A DNA stretch of 54,968 bases from an uncultured Flavobacteriaceae bacterium (lineage in GTDB: Bacteria > Bacteroidota > Bacteroidia > Flavobacteriales > Flavobacteriaceae): positions 1 to 54,968 of the forward strand of contig CANNAN010000022.1 of NCBI GenBank assembly GCA_947502635.1, written 5' to 3'. Shown in pieces: positions 16,107 to 35,391 of the stretch. A program made the position numbers and the translations under genes. The notes below the pieces were generated by a model. The model was given only the letters and a program-made list of their open reading frames with translations, searched no databases and was not told the origin of the DNA. Within the stretch, counting starts at the first letter, position 1, and each line of letters begins with the position of its first letter.

Positions 16107-19256
<3,150 letters not shown>

Positions 19257-19484: not shown

Positions 19485-20501
19485 ATGAGTATCCTATTTA
19501 AAAACATAAATAAACAAAAAGAAATTGTTACACTTACTAAGCATGAACAAATAGTTAATGCCATATTAAACGCAATAGAATCGAAGGAGTTAAAAAAAGG
19601 AGACCGTTTACCATCTATTAACAAAATGGTTGCAGAAATTGGATTCGCTCGCAAAACTATTGTTAAAGCCTACGAAGATTTAAAAGGCAGGGGTATTGTA
19701 GAATCTAAAAACTTTAAAGGTTATTATATTGCTGATGTAAATACAAATACAAAACTAAGAGTAGCCCTTTTGCTTTTTGCTTTTCACTCATTTCAAGAAG
19801 ACTTTTATAACACCTTTAGAGAAGAATTAGGTAAAAAATATATTATAAATGTTTTTTTTCATCATAATAATATGGATGTTTTTAAAGACATTCTAAGAAG
19901 GATCTCAGGCAGGTATGGAATGTATGTTATTGCGCCTATTCAATGCCCCGAAGCAGGACTCTTATTGAAAAAGATACCTAGTGAAAAACTATTAGTTATA
20001 GATAGGCATATTTCTTTACCAAGTGATTACCCTTATATCACTCAAGAGTTTGAATATTCAACCTACAGTCAATTAAAAAAACTACTTCCACAAATTAAAA
20101 AATATAAAAAATTTATCTTATTTTTTAAAGAGGGGTCTGATTATCCAATAGGGGTCCTTAATGCTTTCAATCAATTTGTAAAAGAATTTAATATTGATGC
20201 CAAAGTAGAAAAAGAATATAAAAAAGGTAGTGTCGCTAAAAGCACCTTATACTTTTTTATTAGTGATGGCTATTTATGGGAAATTCTTAGAGACAGTAAA
20301 TTGAAAAATTATACGCTCGGAGAAGACATTGGGGTTTTGGCTCATAACGATAATGCCATTAAAGAAATAATTTTTGGAGGTATCACTACAATTTCCACAG
20401 ACTTTAAAAAAATGGCTTTAGAATCTGCTAATTATTTAAAATTTAGAGAATTTACTCGCAAAGTAATCCCCTCCGAGCTTATCCGTAGAAATTCATTATA
20501 G
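19485..20501 (+). CDS. GntR-family regulator with sugar-binding C-terminal domain
   Basis: 338 residues. The first ~80 form a GntR winged helix (QIVNAILNAIESKELKKGDR, LPSINKMVAEIGFARKTIVK, AYEDLKGRGIVESK). The remainder resembles the periplasmic-binding-protein fold of LacI/AraR regulators (LRVALLLFAFHSFQEDFYNT, ending in GITTISTDFKKMALESANYL), suited to sense a sugar or glycoside. It stands upstream of susC on the same strand, divergent from the GH2 gene. It is therefore the likely local regulator of the locus. Three GTAGCATA boxes between its stop and susC are candidate operators. The effector is unknown; an alpha-galactoside or galactosyl-glycerol is inferred from the operon. Confidence 0.88.
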   Translation: MSILFKNINKQKEIVTLTKHEQIVNAILNAIESKELKKGDRLPSINKMVAEIGFARKTIVKAYEDLKGRGIVESKNFKGYYIADVNTNTKLRVALLLFAFHSFQEDFYNTFREELGKKYIINVFFHHNNMDVFKDILRRISGRYGMYVIAPIQCPEAGLLLKKIPSEKLLVIDRHISLPSDYPYITQEFEYSTYSQLKKLLPQIKKYKKFILFFKEGSDYPIGVLNAFNQFVKEFNIDAKVEKEYKKGSVAKSTLYFFISDGYLWEILRDSKLKNYTLGEDIGVLAHNDNAIKEIIFGGITTISTDFKKMALESANYLKFREFTRKVIPSELIRRNSL

Positions 20502-20585
20502 TAACAATTTATAGGGTTTTTCGTGTAACTGCCTAGTTTTTAGACATATTTTTTGTATATTCTTAATATATGTCGATTTTTTTCA

Positions 20586-20639
20586 TATATTTGCAAAGTA
20601 GCATAGTGTAGCATACTTTTAAATAACTAAAGTAGCATA
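20586..20639 (+). promoter_or_regulatory. Candidate susC promoter with three GTAGCATA boxes
   Basis: TATATTTG at 20586-20593 matches the TAnnTTTG -7 box, though no TTTG lies at 19-21 bp upstream. GTAGCATA occurs at 20598-20605, 20608-20615 and 20632-20639. The first two are 10 bp apart, one helical turn, and cover the expected transcription start. This arrangement suits a repressor, probably the GntR-type protein just upstream. Confidence 0.5.
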
Positions 20640-20675
20640 CAGTATCACAGATTAAACTAACTTAAATATTGACTT

Positions 20676-23600
20676 ATGAAAAAAAATGTACTAAGACTAT
20701 TATTTGCCTTGGTCTTTTCCCTTTTGGGAATGGTTGCTAATGCTCAAATATCAACTGTCTCAGGAACAGTTACAGATGGAAAATTTCCGCTTCCTGGAGT
20801 TAACGTTATTGTGAAAAATACAACAAATGGTACCTCAACAGATTTTGATGGAAATTTTACTATTAGTGATATTAGTTCTGGAGACATTGTTGTTTTTAGC
20901 TATGTTGGGTATGAGACTCAAGAAGTTACAATTGGAAATGAAACCACAATTAATGTCATCTTAATTGAAGATGCGGCAGCATTGGACGAAGTGGTTATTG
21001 TAGGTTATGGAACATCGAATAAGCGCGAATTGACAGGTTCTATTGGATCTGTTAAAGGCGGTGATTTGGCAAATACAGTTGCAGGAAATCCAACCGCAGC
21101 CTTGCAAGGGAAACTTACAGGGATACAAGTGGAAAACCCTGGAGGGCAACCAGGAGGAACTGGTAATGTATTTATTAGAGGTATAAATTCTTTAAGTAAT
21201 GCATCGCCACTTTATATTGTAGATGGATTATTTGTAGATAATATGAACTACATAAATCCTAACGATATTGATAATATTTCTGTTTTAAAAGATGCAGCGG
21301 CAGCAGCAATATATGGTTCTAGAGCTGCTAATGGTGTTGTTTTAATTAAAACAAATCATGGTAGAAAAAATAAAGCTTTAGAGGTCACTTTTAATTCTAG
21401 AGTCGGTTTTGATACACCAAGTAAAAAATTAGACTTTATTGATGGTCAACAGTATACAAACTACTTAAATCAGCGTTTTGCAAATGATGGAAGCTCTACG
21501 ACAGTATCTTTTAATGGTGTAAATACCGATTGGCAAGAGGAATCTTTACAATCTGGGATTATTGAAGATTACGGATTATCCCTTTCAGGAGGTGGTGAGA
21601 AATCATCTTATTACTCATCTATAAATTATTATAACCAAGATGGTATTTTAGTAGGGTCTGGGTTTAAAAGGTTAAATGCTAGATTTAATAGCAACCATGA
21701 GTTTGGTAGGTTTAAACTATCTCAATCATTAGGTATTACCGAAGCTAAATTGCAAGAAAATAACTGGTATGGTTTCGATGGTACTACAGCGCCTACAGTT
21801 GCCTTAAGGAATGCAAGCAATGATGGTGGTTTCGAAGGGCCTTCTACAGATGTACAAGGACCAGGAGGTGTTAATCAATTTGCTTTAGCGACTCTTGAGA
21901 ATAATTTAGAAACAACAAGAACCTTATTTTCTAGTTTAAAATTAGATTACAAAATAAGTGAAGCTTTAACGGCGTCTATCAATTTAGGTGTAGATTATAC
22001 TTCTCAAAAACGTTTTCAGTTTACACCAACTTACTTCATGAGTTTAGTGGATCCAGTAAGAAATGTAAATGATTTGAACGATTTAACAGAGTTTAAACAA
22101 GAAGATATTAACTTATTGTTTGAGCCTACCTTATCATATAAGAAAACATTTAATGATGTACACAAAGTATCTGCTGTTTTAGGGTATACCCGTTTTGTTG
22201 AAACACAAAATAGTAGTGGTATCTACGGCCAAGGTACACCAGCGAATAGTATTCAAGTTGTAGGTGCCTTACCTTCAAGTGATCAAAATATACTTCTAGG
22301 ACAAAATAATGAAGCTGGTTTAATATCTTATTTTGGTCGTTTAAACTATAATTATAAAGACAAATATATTTTCTCAGGAACTTTAAGAAGAGATGCTTCT
22401 TCTAGATTTGCAAAAGAAAATCAAGAAGGCTATTTTCCATCAGTTTCTGCAGCATGGAATATTAGTAATGAAGGTTTTTGGGATTCTGAAACCATTAACT
22501 TTTTTAAGTTAAGAATGTCTTACGGAGAGTTGGGATCATACCCTGATGTATTTTATCCTACACAGGCTGTATTTCTTGCTAACCAATCCAATACAAGTTT
22601 TGGAGGAGGTACAGCAAATGGTTTAGCGCAAACCACACTTGCAGATGAAAATCTGGTATGGGAAACTACAAAAACATTCGATATTGGAGTCGATGTATCT
22701 CTATTAAATAGTGCCATTACTTTTTCAGCAGATTATTATTCAAAAGATGTTGAAGACGCATTAGTGCCAATCAGCATTCCTTCTACAGCTGGTGTTAGTC
22801 TGCCAGTTACTAGAAATGCAGGGACACTTATTAACAATGGTTTTGAGTTTGATCTTACTTACAAAAAGTCGGAAGGTGATTTTACTTATAGCGTAGGCAC
22901 AAATTTTTCTTTCAATCTTAAAAATGAAGCAAAAGATATTCCAGCAACGATTTTAGGACCTGGAATAGATGAAGATTTACGTGTTGTAAATAGAACCGAA
23001 GCTAATGGACCAGTTGGTGCATTTTATGGTTGGGTTGTTGAAGATAAAGTGGATCCTGCTACTGGTGATTTTGTTAGAGTTGATACAGATGGTGTTGCTG
23101 GAATTACTTCAGACGATCAAACGATTATTGGAAACCCAACACCAGATTTTACCTATGGTTTAAATTTCTCAGGTGAATATAAGAAATTCGATTTCTCATT
23201 GAATTTTAATGGAGTATCTGGTAACGAAATATATAACTTAAGTAGATATTACAATATCTTATGGCAAGATGGCGGGAAGCTAACCGATGTGCTTAACTCA
23301 TGGACGCCTACAAATACAGATACTAGTATTCCAAGAGCAACAGTAGATGATCCTGCTGGTAATAAAGAGCCTTCTTCTTTCTTTGTAGAAAACGGATCTT
23401 ATTTCAGATTGAAGAATTTAGAGGTTGGATATAATTTTGGAGAAAAAGCACTTGGTATTGATTGGGTGAAAAGTGTGAGATTGTCATTAAACGTTCAAAA
23501 TGTTTTTGTAATAACAGATTATACTGGTTACGATCCAGATATAGCATCAACCAATGGTGGTAGAGCAAATTTAAATTCAGGTGTTCCTGGAGTTAGATCT

Positions 23601-23690
23601 GGAGTAAACCCTTTATTAGGTAGAGGTCTAGACCAAAGAGCATATCCTAATGCCAGAACAGTTATGTTGGGTTTACAAGCTAAGTTTTAA
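20676..23690 (+). CDS. susC: SusC/RagA-like TonB-dependent receptor
   Basis: 1004 residues. A signal peptide (about 1-23, ending VANAQ) is followed by a carboxypeptidase-like regulatory domain (VSGTVTDGKFPLPGVNVIVK, FSYVGYETQEV), then the plug (about 110-230) with DEVVIVGYGT and FIRGINSLSNASPLYIVDG, and the 22-strand barrel to the C-terminal LQAKF. It imports an oligosaccharide or glycoside across the outer membrane with energy from TonB. The SusD partner follows after 17 bp. The ligand is not readable from the sequence; the cytoplasmic alpha-galactosidase and glycerol genes downstream suggest an alpha-galactosyl-glycerol. Confidence 0.96.
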   Translation: MKKNVLRLLFALVFSLLGMVANAQISTVSGTVTDGKFPLPGVNVIVKNTTNGTSTDFDGNFTISDISSGDIVVFSYVGYETQEVTIGNETTINVILIEDAAALDEVVIVGYGTSNKRELTGSIGSVKGGDLANTVAGNPTAALQGKLTGIQVENPGGQPGGTGNVFIRGINSLSNASPLYIVDGLFVDNMNYINPNDIDNISVLKDAAAAAIYGSRAANGVVLIKTNHGRKNKALEVTFNSRVGFDTPSKKLDFIDGQQYTNYLNQRFANDGSSTTVSFNGVNTDWQEESLQSGIIEDYGLSLSGGGEKSSYYSSINYYNQDGILVGSGFKRLNARFNSNHEFGRFKLSQSLGITEAKLQENNWYGFDGTTAPTVALRNASNDGGFEGPSTDVQGPGGVNQFALATLENNLETTRTLFSSLKLDYKISEALTASINLGVDYTSQKRFQFTPTYFMSLVDPVRNVNDLNDLTEFKQEDINLLFEPTLSYKKTFNDVHKVSAVLGYTRFVETQNSSGIYGQGTPANSIQVVGALPSSDQNILLGQNNEAGLISYFGRLNYNYKDKYIFSGTLRRDASSRFAKENQEGYFPSVSAAWNISNEGFWDSETINFFKLRMSYGELGSYPDVFYPTQAVFLANQSNTSFGGGTANGLAQTTLADENLVWETTKTFDIGVDVSLLNSAITFSADYYSKDVEDALVPISIPSTAGVSLPVTRNAGTLINNGFEFDLTYKKSEGDFTYSVGTNFSFNLKNEAKDIPATILGPGIDEDLRVVNRTEANGPVGAFYGWVVEDKVDPATGDFVRVDTDGVAGITSDDQTIIGNPTPDFTYGLNFSGEYKKFDFSLNFNGVSGNEIYNLSRYYNILWQDGGKLTDVLNSWTPTNTDTSIPRATVDDPAGNKEPSSFFVENGSYFRLKNLEVGYNFGEKALGIDWVKSVRLSLNVQNVFVITDYTGYDPDIASTNGGRANLNSGVPGVRSGVNPLLGRGLDQRAYPNARTVMLGLQAKF

Positions 23691-23707
23691 TCAATAAAAA
23701 ATATATT

Positions 23708-25276
23708 ATGAAAAAAATAATAAAAATGAAGTCCTTATTAGGCATAATAACAGGTTCGTTATTAGTGTTGTTTGCTTGTTCTGATGATATATTAGATCAA
23801 CAAAATAACAATGCAACATCTACAGCAAATTTTGGTACGTCTGTAGAGCAAGTGAAGTCTGCTATAAATGGCGCCTTTCACCCAATTACAGGAACTTTTT
23901 TCTGGGGTAGAATTATACATACGGGTGCGATGCTACGTTCAGATGAATTCAATGTATTTCCATTTGGATCGAATACTGCGATGTCAACGTTTTTAGGAAA
24001 CCCAGGAGATCGTTGGGCTACCGAACCTTGGCAAGAACTTTATAAGTCTATAGCACGTTGCAATAATATCATTATTAATACAACTGAAGAAGGTATTACA
24101 GACCAAACCACCAGAGAAAATTTAGTTGGACAAGCTTATTTCTTGCGTGCTTTTAATTATTGGTATTTAGCAAACCTTTATGGTAGTGTTCCTTTAATTA
24201 CGGATTTGCCAGACTTAGACAACCTTTTAGTTGATAAAGCGTCAACCGCAGATATTTGGGCGCAAATAATTTCAGATTTAGAAATGGCAGAAACGATGTT
24301 GCCAGATAGTTGGACAGGAGAAGATTTAGGAAGACCAACAAGTGGAGCCGCTACAGCATTAAAAGGTAAAAGCTATTTATACATGAAACAATATGGTGCA
24401 GCAACAACGGCCTTTAATAGCTTAGTTGGTAGATATAGTTTATTGTCTGGTGCTCAATTTGGAGATAACTTCTCAACTACTAACGAAAATAATAGTGAGT
24501 CTATATTCGAATTACAATTTTTAGGTCAAGATACTTTTGTTTGGGGGTCTGATATTCCTGGAACTGGAAGCATGGGGAATTTTCATATTGATTATGCACC
24601 ACCTGCAAAATCTCCAGATAGGAGTCATGTAGTGAACCCTTGGTTAAAAGATTTATACGAAGCACATGGAGATGTTGTACGTAGAAATGAAACGTTGGCA
24701 TACAATTATCCTGGAGCAACAGGTTATGGGGGTGTTGATTTTAATGTTGATTTTGTTGACGATATTCCGTTTGCTACAGATGCTGGAGTAGAAGCTATTT
24801 TTTCTAAAAAATATGCAGGAATGGATTTAGGAACAAGAGATCAAGTAGATTTTTTAGGAACGAATGTAGGAAATAATTGGAGAGTAATTCGTTACGCCGA
24901 TGTCTTATTAATGTTAGCTGAAGCTATGAATGAAGATGGTATGACTTCTCAAGCGATACCGTATGTAGATATGGTTAGAGAGCGAGCAGGATTAACTTTA
25001 ATAGCAGATACAAATCCTGCAATTAATCAAGCAGATATGCGTCAAGCCATTATAGATGAGCGCGCTATGGAATTAGCAGGTGAAGGGCATCGTTTCTTTG
25101 ACTTGGTAAGATGGGGTTTAGCAGAAGATTATATGGGAGCCACGTCTTTACATGGCGCGCATCCTAAATCTTTAAGTCAAGGTGTTTTTCAAACAGGAAA
25201 ACATGAATTAATATGGATTCCAAATTCAGAAAGAGATTCCAACCCTAACCTGGGACAAAACCCTGGTTATAATTAA
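23708..25276 (+). CDS. susD: SusD/RagB-like nutrient-binding lipoprotein
   Basis: 522 residues. The lipoprotein signal ends in VLFAC, with Cys about 24-25, followed by SDD, a typical surface-export start in Bacteroidota. The SusD fold is shown by QAYFLRAFNYWYLANLYGSV, then NNWRVIRYADVLLMLAEAMN, DERAMELAGEGHRFFDLVRW and a C-terminal LIWIPNSERDSNPNLGQNPG. It forms the lid on the SusC barrel and captures ligand at the cell surface. It directly follows susC. A strong hairpin after it (25319-25351) separates the SusCD part from the catabolic genes. Confidence 0.96.
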   Translation: MKKIIKMKSLLGIITGSLLVLFACSDDILDQQNNNATSTANFGTSVEQVKSAINGAFHPITGTFFWGRIIHTGAMLRSDEFNVFPFGSNTAMSTFLGNPGDRWATEPWQELYKSIARCNNIIINTTEEGITDQTTRENLVGQAYFLRAFNYWYLANLYGSVPLITDLPDLDNLLVDKASTADIWAQIISDLEMAETMLPDSWTGEDLGRPTSGAATALKGKSYLYMKQYGAATTAFNSLVGRYSLLSGAQFGDNFSTTNENNSESIFELQFLGQDTFVWGSDIPGTGSMGNFHIDYAPPAKSPDRSHVVNPWLKDLYEAHGDVVRRNETLAYNYPGATGYGGVDFNVDFVDDIPFATDAGVEAIFSKKYAGMDLGTRDQVDFLGTNVGNNWRVIRYADVLLMLAEAMNEDGMTSQAIPYVDMVRERAGLTLIADTNPAINQADMRQAIIDERAMELAGEGHRFFDLVRWGLAEDYMGATSLHGAHPKSLSQGVFQTGKHELIWIPNSERDSNPNLGQNPGYN

Positions 25277-25318
25277 TAATAAAAACGTATTTGATTTTAG
25301 TTTGTTTTTTGATTGAAT

Positions 25319-25351
25319 AAAAGCCGAGTCCCTTAAATATACTCGGCTTTT
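25319..25351 (+). terminator. Hairpin between susD and the catabolic genes
   Basis: Perfect 11-bp stem AAAAGCCGAGT / ACTCGGCTTTT around an 11-base loop, followed by an AT-rich run. It would end or weaken transcription from susCD into the alpha-galactosidase gene. Partial read-through would give high SusCD and lower enzyme levels. Confidence 0.8.
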
Positions 25352-25446
25352 AATTAATCAGATCGAGAAAATATGTTCAAAAATTTTGAAAAAAGAACTA
25401 AAGCAGTAGCTAGATTAATGATTTTTTCAATTGATATAAAATTAGA

Positions 25447-27219
25447 ATGATGAAAAAAAATCATATAATTTCTGAGAAGGATATTCACATAGAAGGCGAC
25501 TTAAATAATTTTAAAACAGAATTATCAGTCCTTTCTAAAAATTCAAGTGTGTCTGTATTTGGATTTAAAATTTCTGCGATATCATCGCCAGAAACTCCAA
25601 AACCAATAACATTAAAATGGAAAATTCCTGCTCATAATGTTAAAGGTGTTTGGAAACCAACCACAGATTTTGCAAAAAGAATTCAGGCAGATTGGGAAAT
25701 GAATCATATGGAATCTAGGATATCTATTGATGCACCAGTTATTAGTCTGTTTGGGCATGATGATAGCAATCAGCACACGTTTGCTTGTTCTAATGCCATA
25801 AATAAATTAGAGCTCAATGCAGAGATTAGAGAAGAAGACGATTGTTTTTATTGTCATATAACCCTGTTTTTGGAACAGCAATCTAAGGTTAAAGATTACC
25901 ATATCGAAATAAGAATAGATCAGGAGGAAAAACATTTTTCTCAAGCCTTAAAAGGTGTTTCCAAATGGTGGGAAACTTTTGATAATCTGAAGCCAACTTC
26001 TGTTCCTGATATTGCATTGAGGCCACTTTATTCAACGTGGTATCAATTTCATCAAAATTTAGAAGAAGCTGTTTTAATAGAAGAATGTAAACAAGCATAT
26101 AATTTAGGGTATAAGGCTGTTATAATTGATGATGGATGGCAAACCAATGATGGGAATAGAGGATACGATTTTACAGGAGACTGGGAACCCGAGCGTCTTT
26201 CAAAAACCAAAGAATTTGTAGCCAATATTCATGCTACAGGAATGAAAATCGGATTTTGGTATTCAGTGCCTTTCTGCGGAAAAAAATCAAAAGCATACAA
26301 ACGTTTTAAAGGCAAGTTTTTGACAGAGAATCACCGTTGGGCACCTGTTTTTGATCCTCGGTATCCCGAAGTTCGTGAGTATCTTATAAGTATTTATAAA
26401 AATGCCATATTAGATTGGAATTTAGATGGATTTAAACTCGATTTTATTGACGATTTTAGATTGTATGTCGATACACCAAAAGTAAATCCTAGTATGGATT
26501 TCATTTCTATCAATGCAGCAGTAGATAGATTATTAACAGATGTTATCACAACACTTAAAAATATAAACCCTGAGGTTTTTATAGAATTCAGGCAAAAATA
26601 TACAGGGCCAGCTATGCGTAAATATGGTAATATGTTCCGTGCATTCGATTGCCCTGGCGATGCCACTATGAATCGTGTTAGAATTGCAGATATTAGAATG
26701 TTAGCAGGAAATACAGCAGTGCATTCCGATATGATTACTTGGCATCATGATGAAGATTTGGAAGTAGCTGCCTTACAAATGGTAAACACATTATTTGGAG
26801 TTCCTCAAATTTCAGTAGTGCTTAAAGATATTCCTAAAGACCATTTAGAAATGGTTAAGTTTTATACATCTTATTGGAATACAAATAAAAAACTTATTAC
26901 AAAAGGGTACTTTATACCACTTAATCCACTTGCAAATTACCCCATTCAGAAGGTTAGCAAAAATGATAAAATTATTATCGGCTTACATGATGATTATGTG
27001 GTTGAACTTGATGAAGTATCTGAAAATATTGATATTTTAAATGCTAAATTATCGACTTCGGCTATAATTAAATCAGACTTCGATTTAGGGGATTATAATT
27101 ACCGTATCTTTAATTGCAGGGGGAATCTTGTGAATGAAGGTCGTTTAATGCTAAATAAAGGTGTGTTAGAAATTAAAGTTCCTGCTTGTGGCTTAATTCA
27201 ACTAACTTTAAATAAATAA
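25447..27219 (+). CDS. GH36-type alpha-galactosidase, cytoplasmic
   Basis: 590 residues with no signal peptide. A beta-rich N-terminal domain (1-190) precedes a TIM barrel. Recognisable GH36/GH27 features are YSTWYQFHQN, VIIDDGWQTN (Asp228-Asp229), MKIGFWYSVPF and LDGFKLDFIDDF with the likely nucleophile Asp332. The segment AFDCPGDATMNR (Asp401, Asp405) probably holds the acid/base. The enzyme should release terminal alpha-galactose from small substrates; raffinose-synthase-like relatives share DDGWQ. The cytoplasmic location means substrate must cross the inner membrane intact, and a symporter gene follows after 7 bp. Glycerol kinase and G3P dehydrogenase in the same operon point to a galactosyl-glycerol. 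Exact specificity is inferred. Confidence 0.88.
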   Translation: MMKKNHIISEKDIHIEGDLNNFKTELSVLSKNSSVSVFGFKISAISSPETPKPITLKWKIPAHNVKGVWKPTTDFAKRIQADWEMNHMESRISIDAPVISLFGHDDSNQHTFACSNAINKLELNAEIREEDDCFYCHITLFLEQQSKVKDYHIEIRIDQEEKHFSQALKGVSKWWETFDNLKPTSVPDIALRPLYSTWYQFHQNLEEAVLIEECKQAYNLGYKAVIIDDGWQTNDGNRGYDFTGDWEPERLSKTKEFVANIHATGMKIGFWYSVPFCGKKSKAYKRFKGKFLTENHRWAPVFDPRYPEVREYLISIYKNAILDWNLDGFKLDFIDDFRLYVDTPKVNPSMDFISINAAVDRLLTDVITTLKNINPEVFIEFRQKYTGPAMRKYGNMFRAFDCPGDATMNRVRIADIRMLAGNTAVHSDMITWHHDEDLEVAALQMVNTLFGVPQISVVLKDIPKDHLEMVKFYTSYWNTNKKLITKGYFIPLNPLANYPIQKVSKNDKIIIGLHDDYVVELDEVSENIDILNAKLSTSAIIKSDFDLGDYNYRIFNCRGNLVNEGRLMLNKGVLEIKVPACGLIQLTLNK

Positions 27220-27226
27220 TAAGATT

Positions 27227-28882
27227 ATGGATACGCTGTCAATTATTTCTTTTATTGGTTTTACATTATTGGTAGCTTTCATTGCCTGGTATGCCACCCG
27301 CAAAACAGATGAAAAATCTGCGGATGGCTATTACCTTGGTGGAAGAAGTTTGGGTTATATAACGATAGCAGGTTCTTTATTATTAACAAACCTTTCTGCA
27401 GAGCAAATAGTTGGTCTTAATGGTCAATCTTTTGCACAAGGTGTTTTAGTCATGGCATGGGAAACTCTGGCAGCAATTTCAATGATAGTAACTGCTATTT
27501 ATTTATTGCCTAAGTACATGCGGTCTGGTATAACCACAATACCAGAATTTATTCAAGAGCGGTTTGATGCACAAACAAAATCCATTTTATCATTATTGTT
27601 TTTGGTGGCTTTTGGTATCGTATTATTACCAACAATTTTATATTCGGGATCGTTAGCATTTAGTACGATGTTTGATTTGCCCGAAGTTTTAGGCGTATCG
27701 CAATCTACAGTTATATGGATATGTGTTTGGTCAATAGGTATTATAGGTTCCATATATGCCATTTTTGGTGGTTTAAAAGCTGTGGCGGTTTCCGATTTGG
27801 TAAATGCCATTGGGTTATTAATAGGAGGTCTTTTAATTCCCGTTTTTGGTTTAATGCTAATAGGAGACGGAAATGTGTCTAATGGATTAAGTACTCTATG
27901 GGAAGCAAATCCTGAAAAATTTAATGCTAAAGGGGATATAGATTCCTTTATTCCGTTCGGGACTATTTTTACAGGAATGATGATTGCACAAATGTACTAT
28001 TGGGGAACCAATCAATCTATTTTACAACGTGTTTTTGGAGCTAAAAGTTTAAAAGAAGGCCAAAAGGGGATGATATTGGCTGGTTTTGTAAAGTTCTTAA
28101 TTCCTATCATTGTGGTATTACCAGGTATTATTGCATGGCATGTATTTGGAAATGATTTAGATAATGCAGATCAGGCTTATCCTGCTTTGGTTCGTAAAGT
28201 TTTACCAGGAGCCTTTTTAGGGTTCTTTGCAGCGGTTCTTTTTGGAGCTGTTTTGAGTTCATTCAATAGTTTATTAAATAGTAGCTCGACACTATTTGGA
28301 GTAGATCTATATCGTCAATATTTTGATAAAAATGCTTCTGAGCTTAAAATGGTAAAAGCTGGGAAAATATTTGGGTTGCTTCTAGCTATTATATCGATGA
28401 CTATTTCTCCATTTATTGCCAATGCCCCAGATGGGTTGTTTTCATATATTCAGGAATCATTAGGAAGTTTAAGTGTGCCTATTCTAGCCGTAGTAACCGT
28501 TGGAATAATTACCAAAAATGTACCTGCAATTGGCGCTAAAATAGTATTAACTGTTGGTGTGCTTATGTATTTAATAAGTCAATTTGTATTAAGCCCCCAT
28601 TTTGTAGATGCTGCACTAGCAGAAGCAGCCTCGAATGGGATAACAGATGTTAAAGAATTAGGTATTATAAAAGCAAAAGCATATCCCCATTTTTTACATA
28701 TTATGGGCATACTGTTTGTCATTAATGTTGGGTTTATGTTGTTGATGGGGAAACTATACCCAAACAAAAATGTTTACACACCAAAAATCACAGAGCAAAT
28801 AGATATTACGCCTTGGAAATATGCTAAAGTGGTGGGAATTATCATTACCATATTAGTATTAAGTACCTATCTTATTTTTTAA
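27227..28882 (+). CDS. Sodium:solute symporter (SSS family, SglT-like)
   Basis: 551 residues, strongly hydrophobic, with about 13-14 membrane segments. Family marks include the early GYYLGGRSLGYITIAGSLLL, then TNLSAEQIVGLNGQSFAQG, GGLKAVAVSDLVNAIGL and the later FGAVLSSFNSLLNSSSTLFG. It carries a sugar or glycoside with sodium across the inner membrane. It sits 7 bp after the alpha-galactosidase and 16 bp before glpK. Since no glycerol facilitator (GlpF) is encoded here, this transporter probably brings in the intact galactoside, and glycerol appears only after cleavage (inference). Confidence 0.93.
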   Translation: MDTLSIISFIGFTLLVAFIAWYATRKTDEKSADGYYLGGRSLGYITIAGSLLLTNLSAEQIVGLNGQSFAQGVLVMAWETLAAISMIVTAIYLLPKYMRSGITTIPEFIQERFDAQTKSILSLLFLVAFGIVLLPTILYSGSLAFSTMFDLPEVLGVSQSTVIWICVWSIGIIGSIYAIFGGLKAVAVSDLVNAIGLLIGGLLIPVFGLMLIGDGNVSNGLSTLWEANPEKFNAKGDIDSFIPFGTIFTGMMIAQMYYWGTNQSILQRVFGAKSLKEGQKGMILAGFVKFLIPIIVVLPGIIAWHVFGNDLDNADQAYPALVRKVLPGAFLGFFAAVLFGAVLSSFNSLLNSSSTLFGVDLYRQYFDKNASELKMVKAGKIFGLLLAIISMTISPFIANAPDGLFSYIQESLGSLSVPILAVVTVGIITKNVPAIGAKIVLTVGVLMYLISQFVLSPHFVDAALAEAASNGITDVKELGIIKAKAYPHFLHIMGILFVINVGFMLLMGKLYPNKNVYTPKITEQIDITPWKYAKVVGIIITILVLSTYLIF

Positions 28883-28898
28883 ATTGAATCGTATAAAC

Positions 28899-30380
28899 AT
28901 GAGTAAAAAATATGTCATCGCGTTCGATCAAGGAACAACAAGTACAAGAACCATTGTTTTTGATGAAAAAGGGGCTATTGTTTCAATTTCTCAAAAGGAA
29001 TTAAAGCAATACTATCCGCAACCTGGTTGGGTAGAACATGATGCATTAGAAATATATAACGACCAATTAGAGACATTCAATAAAGCGGTTTCAGACTCAA
29101 GAATTGATCCAAAAGATATTGCTGCCGTAGGTATTACTAACCAAAGAGAAACCACCGTTGTTTGGGATAAAGAAACAGGAAAGCCCATCCATAAAGCCAT
29201 TGTTTGGCTGGATAAGCGAACTACTGATATTTGTAAAGATTTAGAAAGGAAAAAACTTTCAAACTATATTAAAAAAAATACAGGTCTGGTTATAGATTCG
29301 TATTTCTCAGGCACCAAATTAAAATGGATTTTAGATCATGTTGAAGGTGCCCAAGAAAAGGCAGAAGCTGGCAAACTTATGTTCGGAACTATTGACAGCT
29401 GGTTAATTTATAAGTTTACAAACGGTAAAAAACATGTAACGGATCATACCAATGCATCCCGAACCATGATATATAACATTAAGAAATTAGAGTGGGATAA
29501 AAAACTACTTGAAGCATTAAATATTCCCTCAAGTATATTACCTGTGGTTCAAACGTCATCTTCAGATTTTGGATCCATTGATTATAAGGGTGTTGAAATC
29601 CCAATTTACGGCGTCGCTGGAGATCAACAAGCTTCCTTATTTGGTCAGGGCGGGTTCAAAGCTGGTATTGCAAAAAGCACCTATGGAACCGGGTGTTTTA
29701 TTCTATTAAACACTGGTGAAAAACAAGTGAAATCGAAAAAAGGTTTATTAACGACTCTAACTTGCAGTTTGGATTCTGAACCAGTAAATTATGCTTTAGA
29801 AGGAAGCATATTTGCTGGTGGAGCATCCATTCAGTGGCTCAGGGATCGTATGCAAGTGATTGAAAAAGCAAGCGAAACAGAAGCTATTTGCAACAACCTT
29901 CCGCCACTTAAACACGTATATGTAGTACCTGCGTTTGCAGGTTTGGGAGCACCACACTGGGATGCCAAAGCAAAAGGAAGTGTTTATGGTATGACTCTGG
30001 ATACAGGAAGGGAAGAGCTCATTAAAGCGACTGTTAACGCTTTAGCATATCAAACCAAAGATGTTATTGGCGCTATGGAAAAAGATAGTAACAATAAGAT
30101 AGTAACATTGAAAGTAGACGGAGGAGCTAGTGCAAATAATTACCTAATGCAGTTTCAATCGGACCTTTTAAATGTTGAGGTAGACCGACCAAAAATGATT
30201 GAAGTTACAGCTTTTGGAGCCGCATTATTAGCGGGTATAAAAGCAGGTGTTTGGACAAAAAATGACATCTCTGAAATAAGAGAAGTTGATACCGTGTTTA
30301 GTCCAGAAATGGAAGAAAAAACACGAAAAAAGAATTATAAAGGCTGGAAAAAAGCTATAAAAAGAACAAAAAGAAAGTAA
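28899..30380 (+). CDS. glpK: Glycerol kinase
   Basis: 493 residues from the ATG at 28899; the frame is open to a TTG at 28884, but SKKYVIAFDQGTTSTR is the usual N terminus. It phosphorylates glycerol to sn-glycerol 3-phosphate. FGGY-kinase marks are DQGTTSTR, TNQRETTVVWDKETG, GTIDSWLIYKFT, VAGDQQASLFGQ, GTGCFILLNTG and KVDGGASANNYLMQFQSD. Length matches bacterial GlpK. It lies between the symporter and glpD (1 bp gap to the latter). The absence of glpF suggests the glycerol is made inside the cell, here by the alpha-galactosidase. Confidence 0.97.
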   Translation: MSKKYVIAFDQGTTSTRTIVFDEKGAIVSISQKELKQYYPQPGWVEHDALEIYNDQLETFNKAVSDSRIDPKDIAAVGITNQRETTVVWDKETGKPIHKAIVWLDKRTTDICKDLERKKLSNYIKKNTGLVIDSYFSGTKLKWILDHVEGAQEKAEAGKLMFGTIDSWLIYKFTNGKKHVTDHTNASRTMIYNIKKLEWDKKLLEALNIPSSILPVVQTSSSDFGSIDYKGVEIPIYGVAGDQQASLFGQGGFKAGIAKSTYGTGCFILLNTGEKQVKSKKGLLTTLTCSLDSEPVNYALEGSIFAGGASIQWLRDRMQVIEKASETEAICNNLPPLKHVYVVPAFAGLGAPHWDAKAKGSVYGMTLDTGREELIKATVNALAYQTKDVIGAMEKDSNNKIVTLKVDGGASANNYLMQFQSDLLNVEVDRPKMIEVTAFGAALLAGIKAGVWTKNDISEIREVDTVFSPEMEEKTRKKNYKGWKKAIKRTKRK

Positions 30381-30381
30381 G

Positions 30382-32067
30382 ATGCAAGTGATGGAAAGAC
30401 ATATAGAATTTTCAGTTTTAAATAGAGCAGCACAAATCGAAAAATTACAAACGACAAAATTTGATTTGGCGGTAATTGGTGGTGGTGTTACAGGAGCAGG
30501 AATAGCTTTAGATGCGGCTTCACGTGGTCTAAAAGTATGTCTCGTTGAGAAGAATGATTTTGCTTCAGGAACCAGTAATAAATCTACAAAATTGATTCAT
30601 GGAGGCTTACGCTATCTCAAACAATTTGAAATTGGATTAGTGAGAGAATCAGGGTCAGAACGCGCCATAGTTCATAAACTCGCGCCGCATTTAGTTATTC
30701 CAGAAAAAATGTTATTGCCTTTAGTAGAAGGAGGTACCTATGGCAAAATGATGACTTCCATTGGGTTAAAAGTTTACGATTTTTTAGCAGATGTTACAGG
30801 GGATGATAGACGTAAGATGTTGGATAAGGAAGAAACCCTAGAAAAAGAATCCCTGCTTAATAAAGAGGTTGTTTTGGGTAGCGGACTTTACGCAGAATAC
30901 AGAACAGATGATGCGCGTTTAACCATAGAAATATTAAAAAAAGCGGCATCTTTTGGAGCAACCATCATTAATTATTGTGAAATGGAATCGTTTAATTATA
31001 ATGACGATTCTAAAATTAAAAGTTTAAACTGTAAAGACAACAATACAAGAAATACATTCAAAATAAAAGCCAGAAATTACGTTTCGGCTGCTGGGCCTTG
31101 GGTAGATACATTACGTACCAAAGACCAATCTATGAATAAAAAGTATTTACACTTAACTAAAGGTGTACATATTGTATTTCCTTATGAAAAATTGCCTGTA
31201 AAACAACCTCTTTATTTTGATGTACCCGATGGGAGAATGATTTTTGCTATTCCAAGAGGGCGTGCTACTTATGTGGGGACAACAGATACCAATTATTCAG
31301 GGAATTTAGAGCGCGTTATTGCTACTAATGATGATGCCGAATACCTGTTAAACGCTATTAATAGTACATTTCCAGATGTTAATGTTGCTATTGAGGACAT
31401 TGAATCTAACTGGGCTGGTTTAAGACCATTAATTCATGAAGAAGATAAAGATCCTTCAGAATTATCTAGAAAAGATGAATTGTTTGTTTCAGATAGTGGG
31501 CTCATTTCTATAGCAGGTGGAAAACTTACAGGATATCGTAAAATGGCACATCGTGTTATTGAAGCGGTTTTAAAAACGATGAAAAAAAAGCACAAAGAAA
31601 ACTTGAAGCAATCTGAAACAGAAAAAATTTCTTTGGTAAGTCCAGCGCTTAAATCATCTCAAGAAGTTAATCAATATCAAATAGAGCTAGAAAAAGAACT
31701 CAACATATTAGGTGTTACAGATGCTTACCATGCTTGGTATTTATGTACTACCTATGGAAGACAATCTGATATCATTATCGATAAATCAAAAGAGTTTGAA
31801 AATAAAGATGCATTAGTACGACTAATTAGAGCAGAACTGTGGTACTGTATTCATCATGAAATGACTAATAGTTTAACCGATTTCTTTGTACGTCGTACAG
31901 GAAGGCTCTATTTCAATATTCCTAGCGTAAAAGAGTACATGGAAATTATTTCAAATGATTGTTTAAATTATTTAAATTGGGATGCTAAACGTATGGCTTC
32001 AGAAAAAGAAAATCTAGAGTTACTTTTGCAAGATGCGACAACTTACTACAGCAAAGATTTCAAATAA
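30382..32067 (+). CDS. glpD: FAD-dependent glycerol-3-phosphate dehydrogenase
   Basis: 561 residues. The N-terminal FAD fold reads LAVIGGGVTGAGIALDAASR, followed by STKLIHGGLRYLKQFEIGLV, the substrate-domain motifs RGRATYVGTTDTNY and NWAGLRPLIHE, and ISIAGGKLTGYRKMA. The C-terminal domain (about 420-545) is the aerobic GlpD type. It oxidises glycerol 3-phosphate to dihydroxyacetone phosphate and passes electrons to the quinone pool at the inner membrane. The start is 1 bp after the glpK stop, so the two are translationally coupled. A later ATG (MERHIEF) three codons in is an alternative start. Confidence 0.96.
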   Translation: MQVMERHIEFSVLNRAAQIEKLQTTKFDLAVIGGGVTGAGIALDAASRGLKVCLVEKNDFASGTSNKSTKLIHGGLRYLKQFEIGLVRESGSERAIVHKLAPHLVIPEKMLLPLVEGGTYGKMMTSIGLKVYDFLADVTGDDRRKMLDKEETLEKESLLNKEVVLGSGLYAEYRTDDARLTIEILKKAASFGATIINYCEMESFNYNDDSKIKSLNCKDNNTRNTFKIKARNYVSAAGPWVDTLRTKDQSMNKKYLHLTKGVHIVFPYEKLPVKQPLYFDVPDGRMIFAIPRGRATYVGTTDTNYSGNLERVIATNDDAEYLLNAINSTFPDVNVAIEDIESNWAGLRPLIHEEDKDPSELSRKDELFVSDSGLISIAGGKLTGYRKMAHRVIEAVLKTMKKKHKENLKQSETEKISLVSPALKSSQEVNQYQIELEKELNILGVTDAYHAWYLCTTYGRQSDIIIDKSKEFENKDALVRLIRAELWYCIHHEMTNSLTDFFVRRTGRLYFNIPSVKEYMEIISNDCLNYLNWDAKRMASEKENLELLLQDATTYYSKDFK

Positions 32068-32082
32068 AATTCGACTAATAGC

Positions 32083-35000
32083 ATGAAAAATAGTGTATTA
32101 AAATTAGTGACTTGTTTGTTTACTTTAATATTGCTATTCCATTGTAAAAAAGAAGAAAAAGTTAGTATCTCAAAAAAAATTTTTGAAACGCTGGATGCAT
32201 CCTTTTCTGGTATACATTTTTCAAATAACCTTACCGAGAATGATAGTTTAAATTATTTTACTTATTCCTATTTGTACATGGGAGGAGGCGTAGCTATTGG
32301 AGATATTAATAATGATGGTTTAAAAGATGTATTTTTCACTGGGAATCAAGTTTCAAATAAATTATACCTAAATAAAGGGAATCTTCAGTTTGAAGATATT
32401 ACCGATAAAGCTGGAGTTTCGGGAGATAAAAGGTGGTACACGGGTGTGACCATGGCAGATGTAAATGCCGATGGTTACTTAGATATTTACTGCTCAGTTG
32501 GGGGTAAATTTCAAGCTAAAGAAAATCAATTATACATTAATAATCAAGATGGCACTTTTACAGAAAAAGCAAAAGATTATGGTCTGGCAGACATTGGAAA
32601 TAGTGTGCAAGCCACATTTTTCGATTATGATAAAGATGGCGATTTAGATGTTTATGTCGCTAATTATCCACCAACAAAATTCAATGCTTCGGTTTATGTT
32701 TATGAGCAAAAAATGGCTCATGTAAATGATATTGAAACGGATCATTTGTATAGAAATGATGGTGCTGTTTTTGTAGATGTCACAGAAGAAGCTGGTGTTA
32801 AAAGCTTTGGTTTAACATTAAGTGCTACCGTTGGTGATTTAAATAACGACTCCTGGCCAGATTTATATATTTCAAATGATTTTGCATCGCCCGATTATTT
32901 ATATATGAATAACCAAGATGGCACTTTTAGGGAGGTTGTTAAAGAGGTTATGTCGCATACTGCTTTCTATGGGATGGGGGTTGATATTTCCGATTTTAAT
33001 AATGATGGAAACCTAGACGTTTTTCAAGTTGATATGGACGCTAAAACCAATAAACGTAAAAAAGCAAATATGGCAGGGATGAATCCAGATCTGTTTTGGG
33101 GTGTTGTAGATGCTGGTTTTCATTACCAGTATATGCAGAATTGTTTGCAAATGAATACAGGTGTTTTCAATGATGGAAACCCCTTCTTTTCAAATATTTC
33201 TCGACTCACAGGAGTCTCGTCAACCGATTGGAGTTGGGGACCACTCTTTGCAGATTTTGATAACGATGGCTTAAAAGATTTGTTTGTTTCTAACGGGACA
33301 CGTCGCGAGGTTAACAATAGGGATTTCTTTAATCAAATTGATGATGCTTTTACCATTGATAGTGATAAAACTTTAGCCATGAGTTTAAAAATTCCATCAG
33401 AAAAGATTGATAATTTTATTTATAAAAATAATGGTGATTTAAACTTTAAACAAGCCAATAAAGATTGGGGGATAACATTTAAAGGTTTTTCAAATGGTGT
33501 GGCTTATGCTGATTTGGATAATGATGGTGATTTGGAAATTATCACAAATAATATTGATGATTATGCTTCTGTTTTTGAAAATAAAAGTTCTGAAACTAAT
33601 AATTATTTGAGTATACAATTTGAAGGCACCGAAAAGAATAGTTTTGGTTTAGGAAACCGTGTTTTTGTCACTTCTAACGGTGAAACACAAATGCAAGAAC
33701 TAACACTAACACGTGGGTTTCAATCTTCGGTAGCACCAGAAATACATTTCGGTTTGGGTAAATCTGAAATCATTAATGAGCTAAAGGTGGTTTGGACAGA
33801 TGGAAAAATTCAAAAACTAAATAATGTTTCAAGCAATCAAACCATTGTTTTAAAATATTCGGATGCTAAAAGTGATTCTGAAACTGTTTTAAATGATACA
33901 GAAAAATTGTTTTCTTCTCATGTTAAAGGTGTTTTTCCTGAGTATAAACATGACGAAAATAATTTTGATGATTTTAAATACCAAGTACTTCTGCCTCATA
34001 AAATGTCAACATTCGGTCCAGGACTAGCTGTTGGTGATTTGAACGATGATGGTTTAGACGATTACTTTGTTGGCGGGGCGTTTAATAGAACAGGACGCTT
34101 GTTTTTTCAAAATGAAAACGGATTTGAAAATCAAAATTCTGAGGTATTCGAATCTGATAAATTGAGTGAAGATGTAGGCGCTTTAGTTTTTGATGCAGAT
34201 AATGATGGCGATAATGATTTGTATGTAGTTAGTGGCGGTTATGAATTTTCACCAAAATCTAAAATGCTTCAAGATAGGTTGTATATAAATGACGGAAAGG
34301 GAAACTTTACGAAAGGTGTTTTACCCGAAATGATAGTAAGCGGATCTAAAGTTTATAATCTTGATTTTAATAAAGATGGAAAACAAGATTTGTTGGTTTT
34401 AGGAAGGCAAATACCAGGACATTATCCAGCACCAGCACATAGTTTTTTGTTAGAAAATAAAACAGAAAATGGCCTTTCGAAATTTGAAGATGTGACCGAA
34501 AGTTTAGCCAACTCTTTTAAAAATTTAGGGATGGCAACAAGTGGAATCGTCACCGATTTTAATAAGGATGGGTGGCAAGATATTATTATAGTTGGTGAAT
34601 GGATGCCCATTCGTGTATTTCAAAATACAAAGAATGGTTTTGAAGAAGTATCGGAGGCTGTTGGTCTATCAAAAGATACCACGGGATGGTGGTGGAGTAT
34701 CAATGAAGGTGATTTTGATGGAGATGGTGACATGGATTACGTGGTTGGAAACAATGGTCTTAATTATAAATATAAAGCAACCGAAGACGAAACTTTTGAC
34801 ATTTATGTGAATGACTTTGACAATGATAATAAAAAAGATATTGTATTAAGTTATTATAATGAAGGTAAGCAATACCCTGTAAGAGGGCGGGAATGTTCAT
34901 CACAGCAAATCCCGAAGATTAAAGACAAATTTAAGAACTACGAAAGTTTTTCGGAAGCGACTTTGGTTGATGTTTACGAAGAGAAATCTTTAGAATCTGC

Positions 35001-35391
35001 CTTGCATTATCAAGTAAAATCTTTTGCAAGCGTCTATCTGGAAAATAAAAATGGAAAATTTATAATCCATGAATTACCTGTTGAAGCTCAAATGTCGAGT
35101 ATTAATACCATTTTAATTGATGACTATGATCATGATGGGGCTCTTGATGCATTAGTGGCAGGAAATTTATTTTCTTCGGAAGTTGAAACACCAAGAAATG
35201 ATGGCGGTTACGGACTCTTTTTAAAAGGGAACAACAATGGTGCTTTTAAAGCTGTAACATCATCTGAAAGTGGTTTCTTTACACTAGGGGATGTTAAAGA
35301 CATGAAACCTATTCATATTAGAAATAAAGAATTTATTATAGTGACAAAGAATAATGGTTTTTTACAATTTGTAGGCACTGAAAAGAATTAA
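32083..35391 (+). CDS. FG-GAP/VCBS-repeat lipoprotein with ASPIC/UnbV segment
   Basis: 1102 residues. The signal CLFTLILLFHCKKEE has a lipobox ending at Cys21. At least eight FG-GAP/VCBS repeats with Ca-binding DxNxDGxxD or DxDxDGDxD loops follow (for example AIGDINNDGLKDVFFTGNQ, DYDKDGDLDVYVANY, DFNNDGNLDVFQVDMD), together forming beta-propellers. About residues 495-600 match the ASPIC/UnbV domain (NYLSIQFEG, LTLTRGFQSSVAPEIHFGLG, LKVVWTDGKIQ). Such CRTAC1-like proteins often accompany SusCD loci. Their role is unknown, possibly glycan binding or surface scaffolding. It is the last gene of the operon, 15 bp after glpD. Confidence 0.88.
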   Translation: MKNSVLKLVTCLFTLILLFHCKKEEKVSISKKIFETLDASFSGIHFSNNLTENDSLNYFTYSYLYMGGGVAIGDINNDGLKDVFFTGNQVSNKLYLNKGNLQFEDITDKAGVSGDKRWYTGVTMADVNADGYLDIYCSVGGKFQAKENQLYINNQDGTFTEKAKDYGLADIGNSVQATFFDYDKDGDLDVYVANYPPTKFNASVYVYEQKMAHVNDIETDHLYRNDGAVFVDVTEEAGVKSFGLTLSATVGDLNNDSWPDLYISNDFASPDYLYMNNQDGTFREVVKEVMSHTAFYGMGVDISDFNNDGNLDVFQVDMDAKTNKRKKANMAGMNPDLFWGVVDAGFHYQYMQNCLQMNTGVFNDGNPFFSNISRLTGVSSTDWSWGPLFADFDNDGLKDLFVSNGTRREVNNRDFFNQIDDAFTIDSDKTLAMSLKIPSEKIDNFIYKNNGDLNFKQANKDWGITFKGFSNGVAYADLDNDGDLEIITNNIDDYASVFENKSSETNNYLSIQFEGTEKNSFGLGNRVFVTSNGETQMQELTLTRGFQSSVAPEIHFGLGKSEIINELKVVWTDGKIQKLNNVSSNQTIVLKYSDAKSDSETVLNDTEKLFSSHVKGVFPEYKHDENNFDDFKYQVLLPHKMSTFGPGLAVGDLNDDGLDDYFVGGAFNRTGRLFFQNENGFENQNSEVFESDKLSEDVGALVFDADNDGDNDLYVVSGGYEFSPKSKMLQDRLYINDGKGNFTKGVLPEMIVSGSKVYNLDFNKDGKQDLLVLGRQIPGHYPAPAHSFLLENKTENGLSKFEDVTESLANSFKNLGMATSGIVTDFNKDGWQDIIIVGEWMPIRVFQNTKNGFEEVSEAVGLSKDTTGWWWSINEGDFDGDGDMDYVVGNNGLNYKYKATEDETFDIYVNDFDNDNKKDIVLSYYNEGKQYPVRGRECSSQQIPKIKDKFKNYESFSEATLVDVYEEKSLESALHYQVKSFASVYLENKNGKFIIHELPVEAQMSSINTILIDDYDHDGALDALVAGNLFSSEVETPRNDGGYGLFLKGNNNGAFKAVTSSESGFFTLGDVKDMKPIHIRNKEFIIVTKNNGFLQFVGTEKN

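Follow-up and report, generated by a model that had tools for sequence, protein, structure and literature searches.

Why genes for glycerol kinase and glycerol-3-phosphate dehydrogenase should stand behind an outer-membrane uptake pair and a glycosidase is the question raised by a locus in a stretch of 54,968 nucleotides (C22:1-54968, hereafter the window) from a Flavobacteriaceae-like genome of 5.44 Mb in 81 contigs. Eight genes at 19485-35391, all on the forward strand, encode a GntR regulator, SusC, SusD, a GH36-like enzyme of 590 residues, a sodium:solute symporter (SSS), GlpK, GlpD and an FG-GAP/ASPIC lipoprotein. We consider it likely, with moderate confidence, that the locus serves the regulated uptake and catabolism of an α-D-galactosyl-glycerol (floridoside and/or the isofloridosides). 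Galactosyl-glycerol is the main photosynthetic product and osmoregulator of red algae, according to an excerpt of PMC8509150, and an excerpt of PMC5928181 lists three isomers, floridoside and both isofloridosides, for a red alga. The proposal is built on computed gene content and order, conservation, common operator sites, the fold of the enzyme and the finding of no GlpF-type motif.

The enzyme

In the structural model, a GH36 fold is present along the entire length of the enzyme. The KxD nucleophile motif and the DDGW motif are both found, and residues D228, D229, G230, W231, K330, D332, R398 and D401 are invariant in 44 aligned homologues, all of which match the Pfam Melibiase model at E ≤ 0.01 (best E 3.1e-12). 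The candidate nucleophile D332 is aligned with D478 of AgaA. D401, the candidate acid/base, is invariant and lies in a suitable motif, beyond the reach of the pairwise alignments. The GH36 assignment rests on the predicted fold and the active-site pattern, not on a sequence-model match over the cut-off. Because of the fold, the linkage of the substrate is expected to be α. The ten highest VIA rows for the model are α-galactosidases; GH31 α-glucosidases, sulfoquinovosidases and a galactosaminidase likewise match. Isofloridoside was made through reverse hydrolysis by GalV, as described in an excerpt of PMC8509150, so that a GH36 enzyme accepts such a linkage.

Gene neighborhood in relatives

A peptide-pattern scan of a genome contig collection yielded 87 relatives, of which the best 80 were kept and 79 loci compared. 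In 60 of them, termed close loci, the enzyme is at least 50% identical (11 of these are shorter than 21 kb, at contig ends); the other 19 are more distant. The relatives with the locus include Zobellia, Maribacter, Flavivirga and Aquimarina. The symporter gene is found in 53 close loci, susC in 47 and the GntR gene in 37. Genes glpK and glpD accompany the enzyme in 24 close loci, galK and/or galT in eight, and either set in 31, with a single locus (L009, on a contig shared with L105) holding glpK, glpD, galK and galT in addition to the core. The remaining 29 have neither set in the DNA covered. In genome G177, galK lies on the fetched fragment, and glpK, glpD and galT on that contig. The 19 distant loci include glpD twice, a GH2 gene three times and no gal gene. 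Because of the linked gal and glp genes, galactose and glycerol are taken to be the two halves of the substrate, so that the neighbors would supply one pathway per half of a galactosyl-glycerol.

A search for the set of GH36, SSS, glpK and glpD genes near susCD in other genomes had been proposed by the first-pass annotation. The set does recur in relatives, and its order varies, enzyme-SSS-GlpK-GlpD being replaced by enzyme-GlpK-GlpD-SSS in Dokdonia and Aquimarina. An acetyltransferase resembling maltose and galactoside O-acetyltransferases, below both cut-offs, is encoded in 20 of the 60 close loci. No sucrose, glucose, mannose or sulfoquinovose genes occur among the annotated recurrent neighbors, the annotation being largely confined to genes that recur in four or more loci. 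The genome of the window has a galT-galK cluster elsewhere (L102:7936-13818), the regulator and symporter of which are 38 and 34% identical to the proteins of the locus.

Glycerol genes and the glycerol channel

GlpK of the locus is the sole full-scoring glycerol kinase found in its genome (one match over the cut-off), and GlpD the sole glycerol-3-phosphate dehydrogenase/oxidase. Each of 17 family genomes in which the enzyme reaches 55% identity, this genome included, contains one over-cut-off glpK and one full-length glpD. They are sited in the locus in seven genomes and elsewhere in ten.

The absence of glpF pointed out in the first pass is borne out: the scan of the window genes showed none, and the two MIP-family matches of the genome, an aquaporin Z and a MIP protein of a different type, lack the GlpF signature motif NPARD. 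An NPARD-bearing MIP channel was found in none of the seven genomes with glp genes in the locus versus eight of the ten with glp genes elsewhere (one-sided hypergeometric 36/19448, about 0.002, a value that ignores relatedness, with one MIP fragment of genome G072 not typable).

In ten loci (L008-L012, L037, L038, L046, L049 and L057), GlpK and GlpD form a single open frame of 1055-1068 amino acids. The fused frame at L008:13462-16632 is matched by both the GlpK and the glycerol-3-phosphate dehydrogenase models, and the fusion may be a natural bifunctional enzyme converting glycerol to dihydroxyacetone phosphate. The GlpK tree requires the gene to have changed location twice or more on branches with good support, with L047 among canonical GlpKs. 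This tree speaks for an independent capture of glpK; that of GlpD does not.

Operator sites

The regulator combines a GntR DNA-binding domain with a LacI/AraR-type effector domain. The direct repeat TAGCAYANNSTAKCAYAS is common to relatives upstream of susC. It occurs exactly twice in the window, where 0.01 sites are expected by chance even allowing one mismatch, and these two copies before susC are the only exact matches in the genome. In all, 37 exact sites are found, in 32 of the 80 sequences formed by the window and the 79 loci. At 31 of these 37 sites, the 16 nt upstream contain TAnnTTTG, the consensus of the Bacteroidota promoter element, versus 0.63% of 20,000 random 16-mers.

The operator pattern has 22 matches in the 17 genomes mentioned above, versus two for the reversed pattern. 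In 249 family genomes, it has 30 matches in 22 genomes versus six reversed, and is present in 14 of the 17 that have a close enzyme. A further set was drawn from the 36 close loci without glpK, for which 27 of 28 genomes were returned; these contain 37 matches versus one reversed. Of these 37, nineteen fall inside an enzyme locus or no more than 4 kb from one, 15 stand before glp genes and three are located elsewhere.

The operator precedes unlinked glpK in genomes G001, G236 and G018, and glpD in G211. In the further set, it stands 32-50 bp upstream of where the glpK match begins in 12 of the 26 genomes having such a match, and before glpD in three (47 bp in G268, about 190 bp in G266 and G267). 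Once five double-counted genomes are removed, an exact operator precedes unlinked glp genes in 17 of 32 distinct genomes (glpK in 13, glpD in four). This suggests that glp genes and enzyme locus form a single regulon in part of the relatives. Because operators precede unlinked glp genes, the idea that the linked ones are accidental neighbors is rejected.

Eight matches fall in genomes where no enzyme reaches 55% identity, and five of these matches were inspected (those in G116, G187 and G226 were left out). Three of the five are situated before other GntR-SusCD loci, a fourth (G032) before such a locus whose enzyme is 44% identical, and the fifth is intragenic. The operator therefore appears to belong to a wider regulator family. 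In L155, L156 and L157, the operator accompanies GntR-SusCD genes that lack a GH36-like enzyme in their vicinity; regulators of this family would seem to act on loci for further substrates as well. A strong operator also stands before a TetR gene and two DUF1348 genes, followed by genes for GAPDH and aldose 1-epimerase (L143:7096-11212, G236 C1:4892098, in a genome that has the enzyme), and two sites are found at a GH2 and SSS gene pair in G257 C2. An operator-like site without obvious target gene (L142:6292-6316, G177 C10; weight-matrix score 19.7) and a further match outside enzyme loci and glp genes (G250 C8:373246) were also recorded.

Uptake and proposed pathway

The adjacent SusC and SusD genes (TIGR04056, SusD_RagB) are those by which a SusC/SusD polysaccharide utilization locus is recognized. 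No secreted depolymerizing enzyme is encoded in the operon, the sole hydrolase of which shows no signal peptide on inspection by eye. The nearest solved structure to the symporter, and its best sequence match among solved structures (2xq2, 3dh4), is the Vibrio galactose symporter vSGLT (PDB 2xq2, E 2.6e-62). Six galactose-contact residues of vSGLT are named in an excerpt of PMC13099297. Four are identical in the symporter of the locus: Q69, E88, K294 (compared in the 3dh4 row, as 2xq2 has an alanine there) and Q428. Unlike vSGLT, it has Q for N260 (aligned with Q255) and A for S91, differences that would be compatible with another or a larger ligand; Y263 of vSGLT is kept.

We infer the substrate, its transport and cleavage, the repression of the locus and the inducer as follows. 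Once carried over the outer membrane by SusC/SusD, the heteroside would be imported intact into the cytoplasm, together with sodium, by the SGLT-like symporter. There, the GH36-like enzyme would act as a retaining glycosidase and release galactose and glycerol. Glycerol would be converted to dihydroxyacetone phosphate by GlpK and GlpD, and galactose would enter the Leloir pathway through galK and galT, which some relatives carry within the locus and this genome elsewhere. The GntR/AraR-type regulator is predicted to bind the TAGCATA direct repeats, which directly follow the -7 box, and to repress the start of transcription there until released by the heteroside or a product of it. Intact uptake, cleavage of an α-galactoside inside the cell and the passage of glycerol to GlpK and GlpD, all proposed in the first pass, gain support from the comparison of genomes. 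The statement that floridoside fits exactly goes further than the data, as isofloridosides, and digalactosylglycerol together with a β-galactosidase, yield the same products; floridoside and isofloridosides are not distinguishable from these data.

Weighing of the evidence

Several observations weigh against a galactosyl-glycerol regulon. The enzyme scores 25.5 bits against Pfam Melibiase, below the cut-off of 27. Of the earlier description as a cytoplasmic GH36-type enzyme, the part resting on fold and active-site motifs is retained and the part calling for a sequence match is not; the shortfall weakens the claim of GH36 family membership, not that of function. The top Foldseek matches are to a galactosaminidase (E 2.3e-27). 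The GlpD tree requires just one change of location. Ahead of glpK or glpD, 15 of the 32 genomes with unlinked genes show no exact operator, and one of these 15 (G086) has a weight-matrix site only. Two of the four glpD operators, about 190 bp off, may belong to a neighboring gene, and TAnnTTTG is on the gene side at only seven of the 17 glp operators. Unlinked regulation of glpK and glpD had been named beforehand as refuting the proposal; with exact operators before them in 17 genomes and no exact one in 15, the result leans in its favor. No operator was found at galK/galT of the window's own genome (L102). A terminator-like hairpin stands between susD and the enzyme gene, and co-transcription of the full locus is therefore not to be presumed. 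An agarase marker for red-algal life, PF17992, was uninformative, matching two of the 249 genomes, neither of them with the enzyme. Lastly, some distant loci and one operator-bearing gene pair add a β-galactosidase, which would suit digalactosylglycerol.

Digalactosylglycerol (α-Gal-1,6-β-Gal-glycerol), the headgroup of a plastid galactolipid, is the main rival to a floridoside-type substrate. The GH36-like enzyme would remove the outer galactose and a cytoplasmic β-galactosidase the inner one, leaving glycerol for GlpK and GlpD. Galactolipid-derived galactosylglycerols are a proposed natural substrate of the E. coli lac system in an excerpt of PMC8333865. The enzyme is paired with a GH2 protein without signal peptide (by eye) in the distant loci L054, L059 and L065, the first of which also encodes GlpD, and a GH42 gene lies just upstream in the Cohnella locus L062. 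At L173:3646-6714, on another contig of an enzyme-locus genome, two exact operators precede a GH2 β-galactosidase and an SSS gene. However, just three of the 60 close loci contain a GH2 gene, and that of the window encodes a signal peptide and has no operator. In the genome of the window, the exact operator is found solely before susC and precedes no β-galactosidase, no search having been made for β-galactosidases elsewhere in that genome. We regard this substrate as unlikely.

Raffinose-type sugars are common substrates of GH36 enzymes, and the locus could serve an ordinary α-galactoside, such as melibiose, raffinose or galactomannan oligomers; glpK and glpD would then be functionally unlinked neighbors. 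Their linkage in 24 close loci in differing orders, the two or more captures apparent in the GlpK tree and the operators before unlinked copies make this improbable, as does the lack of sucrose, glucose and mannose genes among the recurrent neighbors described above. It is quite improbable that the sugar is not galactose, as in 2-O-α-glucosylglycerol, a cyanobacterial osmolyte, or sulfoquinovosyl-glycerol. The folds do overlap, since α-glucosidases of GH31, sulfoquinovosidases and a galactosaminidase match the model, but α-galactosidases occupy the highest VIA rows, gal genes are linked in eight close loci, four of six vSGLT galactose contacts are kept, and sulfoquinovose genes are likewise lacking among these neighbors. 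That the only full-scoring glpK and the only glpD found in the genome sit here would also be expected if the locus were the general glycerol pathway of the lineage, with secondary galactoside genes. We hold this to be very improbable, as genes for sugar uptake and a hydrolase come ahead of the glp genes and the GlpF-type motif was not found in the seven genomes with this arrangement.

An α-galactosyl-glycerol is retained as the favored substrate. The chances appear evenly balanced for the wider proposal that algae-associated Flavobacteriaceae have a dedicated floridoside regulon under GntR control. Its parts would be SusCD as importer, a heteroside symporter resembling SGLT, a family of divergent GH36-like "floridosidases" and a specialized GlpK-GlpD module, fused in ten relatives into a putative bifunctional enzyme leading from glycerol to dihydroxyacetone phosphate.

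Features of the window

The coordinates are collected in Table 1. The intergenic gaps of 7, 16 and 1 bp between the enzyme, SSS, glpK and glpD genes given in the first pass agree with the open-frame coordinates; the likely ATG of glpK is 15 bases inside the frame started at TTG. The identities then given for these last three genes hold, GlpK and the symporter being over NCBIfam cut-offs and GlpD a clear homologue below the equivalog cut-offs.

Table 1 Positions of the regulator, control elements and genes of the locus and of a flanking gene
Feature	Position	Strand	Evidence
Regulator, GntR winged helix and LacI/AraR-type sugar-binding effector domain, 338 aa (amino acids)	19485..20501	+	
-7-like promoter box TAnnTTTG (TATATTTG), 5 bases ahead of operator	20586..20593	+	sequence
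Operator copy 1, direct repeat TAGCAYANNSTAKCAYAS	20599..20616	+	exact site
Operator copy 2, direct repeat TAGCAYANNSTAKCAYAS	20633..20650	+	exact site
SusC-type TonB-dependent outer-membrane transporter, 1004 aa	20676..23690	+	TIGR04056, 786 versus cut-off 368.25 bits
SusD-type outer-membrane lipoprotein, 522 aa	23708..25276	+	Pfam SusD_RagB, 138.5 bits
Terminator-like hairpin, possible attenuator, between susD and enzyme gene	25323..25351	+	GCCGAGT/ACTCGGC then TTTT
GH36-like enzyme, predicted cytoplasmic α-galactosidase, 590 aa, no signal peptide by eye	25447..27219	+	
SGLT-type sodium:solute symporter, 551 aa	27227..28882	+	NF007790, 728 versus cut-off 401
Glycerol kinase GlpK, 498 aa from TTG	28884..30380	+	TIGR01311, 695.9 versus cut-off 590.35 bits
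Glycerol-3-phosphate dehydrogenase/oxidase GlpD, 561 aa	30382..32067	+	homologue of FAD glycerol-3-phosphate dehydrogenase/oxidase
FG-GAP/ASPIC-UnbV repeat lipoprotein	32083..35391	+	Pfam; 15 bp after glpD
GH2 β-galactosidase, signal peptide by eye	16107..19217	-	NF052611, 1020.8 versus 999 bits

The arms of the hairpin (25323-25329 and 25341-25347, followed by TTTT) were read from the sequence; it is not in the list of the terminator scan, which has a loop limit of 8. In the window, that scan gave about as many sites as shuffled sequences, and a sigma-70 scan fewer than shuffles lead one to expect. The GH2 gene was considered as a member of the operon and rejected: it is divergent, encodes a signal peptide and is preceded by no operator, and is probably outside the regulon. 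A Saprospiraceae locus (L054:3244-13374), in which GlpD, two GH36-like enzymes flanking a GH2 protein without signal peptide and a symporter are encoded, looks like a digalactosylglycerol version. Homologues of the FG-GAP/ASPIC-UnbV lipoprotein are encoded in 46 of the 79 loci, and a PAP2-domain protein (c12) in 11.

Comparison with known systems

No bacterial gene set for floridoside or galactosylglycerol is described among the literature matches listed, a search with bioRxiv and most subscription papers outside its scope; the first-pass remark that no such SusCD locus was known to it for floridoside agrees with this. If the proposed regulon is real, the main photosynthate of low molecular weight in red algae would be consumed by a route so far unrecognized, and SusCD loci would serve small osmolytes, not polysaccharides alone. 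Conserved and regulated in Zobellia, Maribacter, Flavivirga, Aquimarina and their kin, the locus would be a marker for carbon flow from red-algal galactosyl-glycerol. It also offers an enzyme subfamily and an operator that lend themselves to direct tests.

Like other Bacteroidota SusC/SusD loci, this one brings together a SusC/SusD pair, a local regulator, a hydrolase and an inner-membrane transporter. Unlike them, it has no secreted polysaccharidase in the operon, its only hydrolase being predicted to be cytoplasmic; it includes genes of glycerol catabolism, and its predicted cargo is a small heteroside. The regulator has the domain pair of the AraR-type GntR/LacI chimeric repressors of B. 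subtilis, from which it differs by its operator, a 10-bp-phased direct repeat directly behind the -7 box. The two glycerol enzymes are those of canonical glpF-glpK-glpD systems; in contrast to these, no GlpF-type motif was found, glycerol is predicted to arise inside the cell, and GlpK and GlpD are fused in ten loci.

The enzyme shares its fold type with GalV, an Anoxybacillus GH36 α-galactosidase of 80 kDa used in biotechnology; the link with glycerol genes is a feature of the locus enzyme and does not appear in the excerpt describing GalV. The E. coli lac operon provides for intact uptake of a galactosyl-glycerol and cytoplasmic cleavage, as predicted here, and an acetyltransferase like the galactoside type is also encoded in a third of the close loci (20 of 60). 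That operon was proposed by Egel to be a galactosylglycerol system, as cited in an excerpt of PMC8333865. Unlike lac, the locus is directed to an α rather than a β linkage, and has an SGLT-type symporter, an outer-membrane SusCD pair and glpK and glpD of its own.

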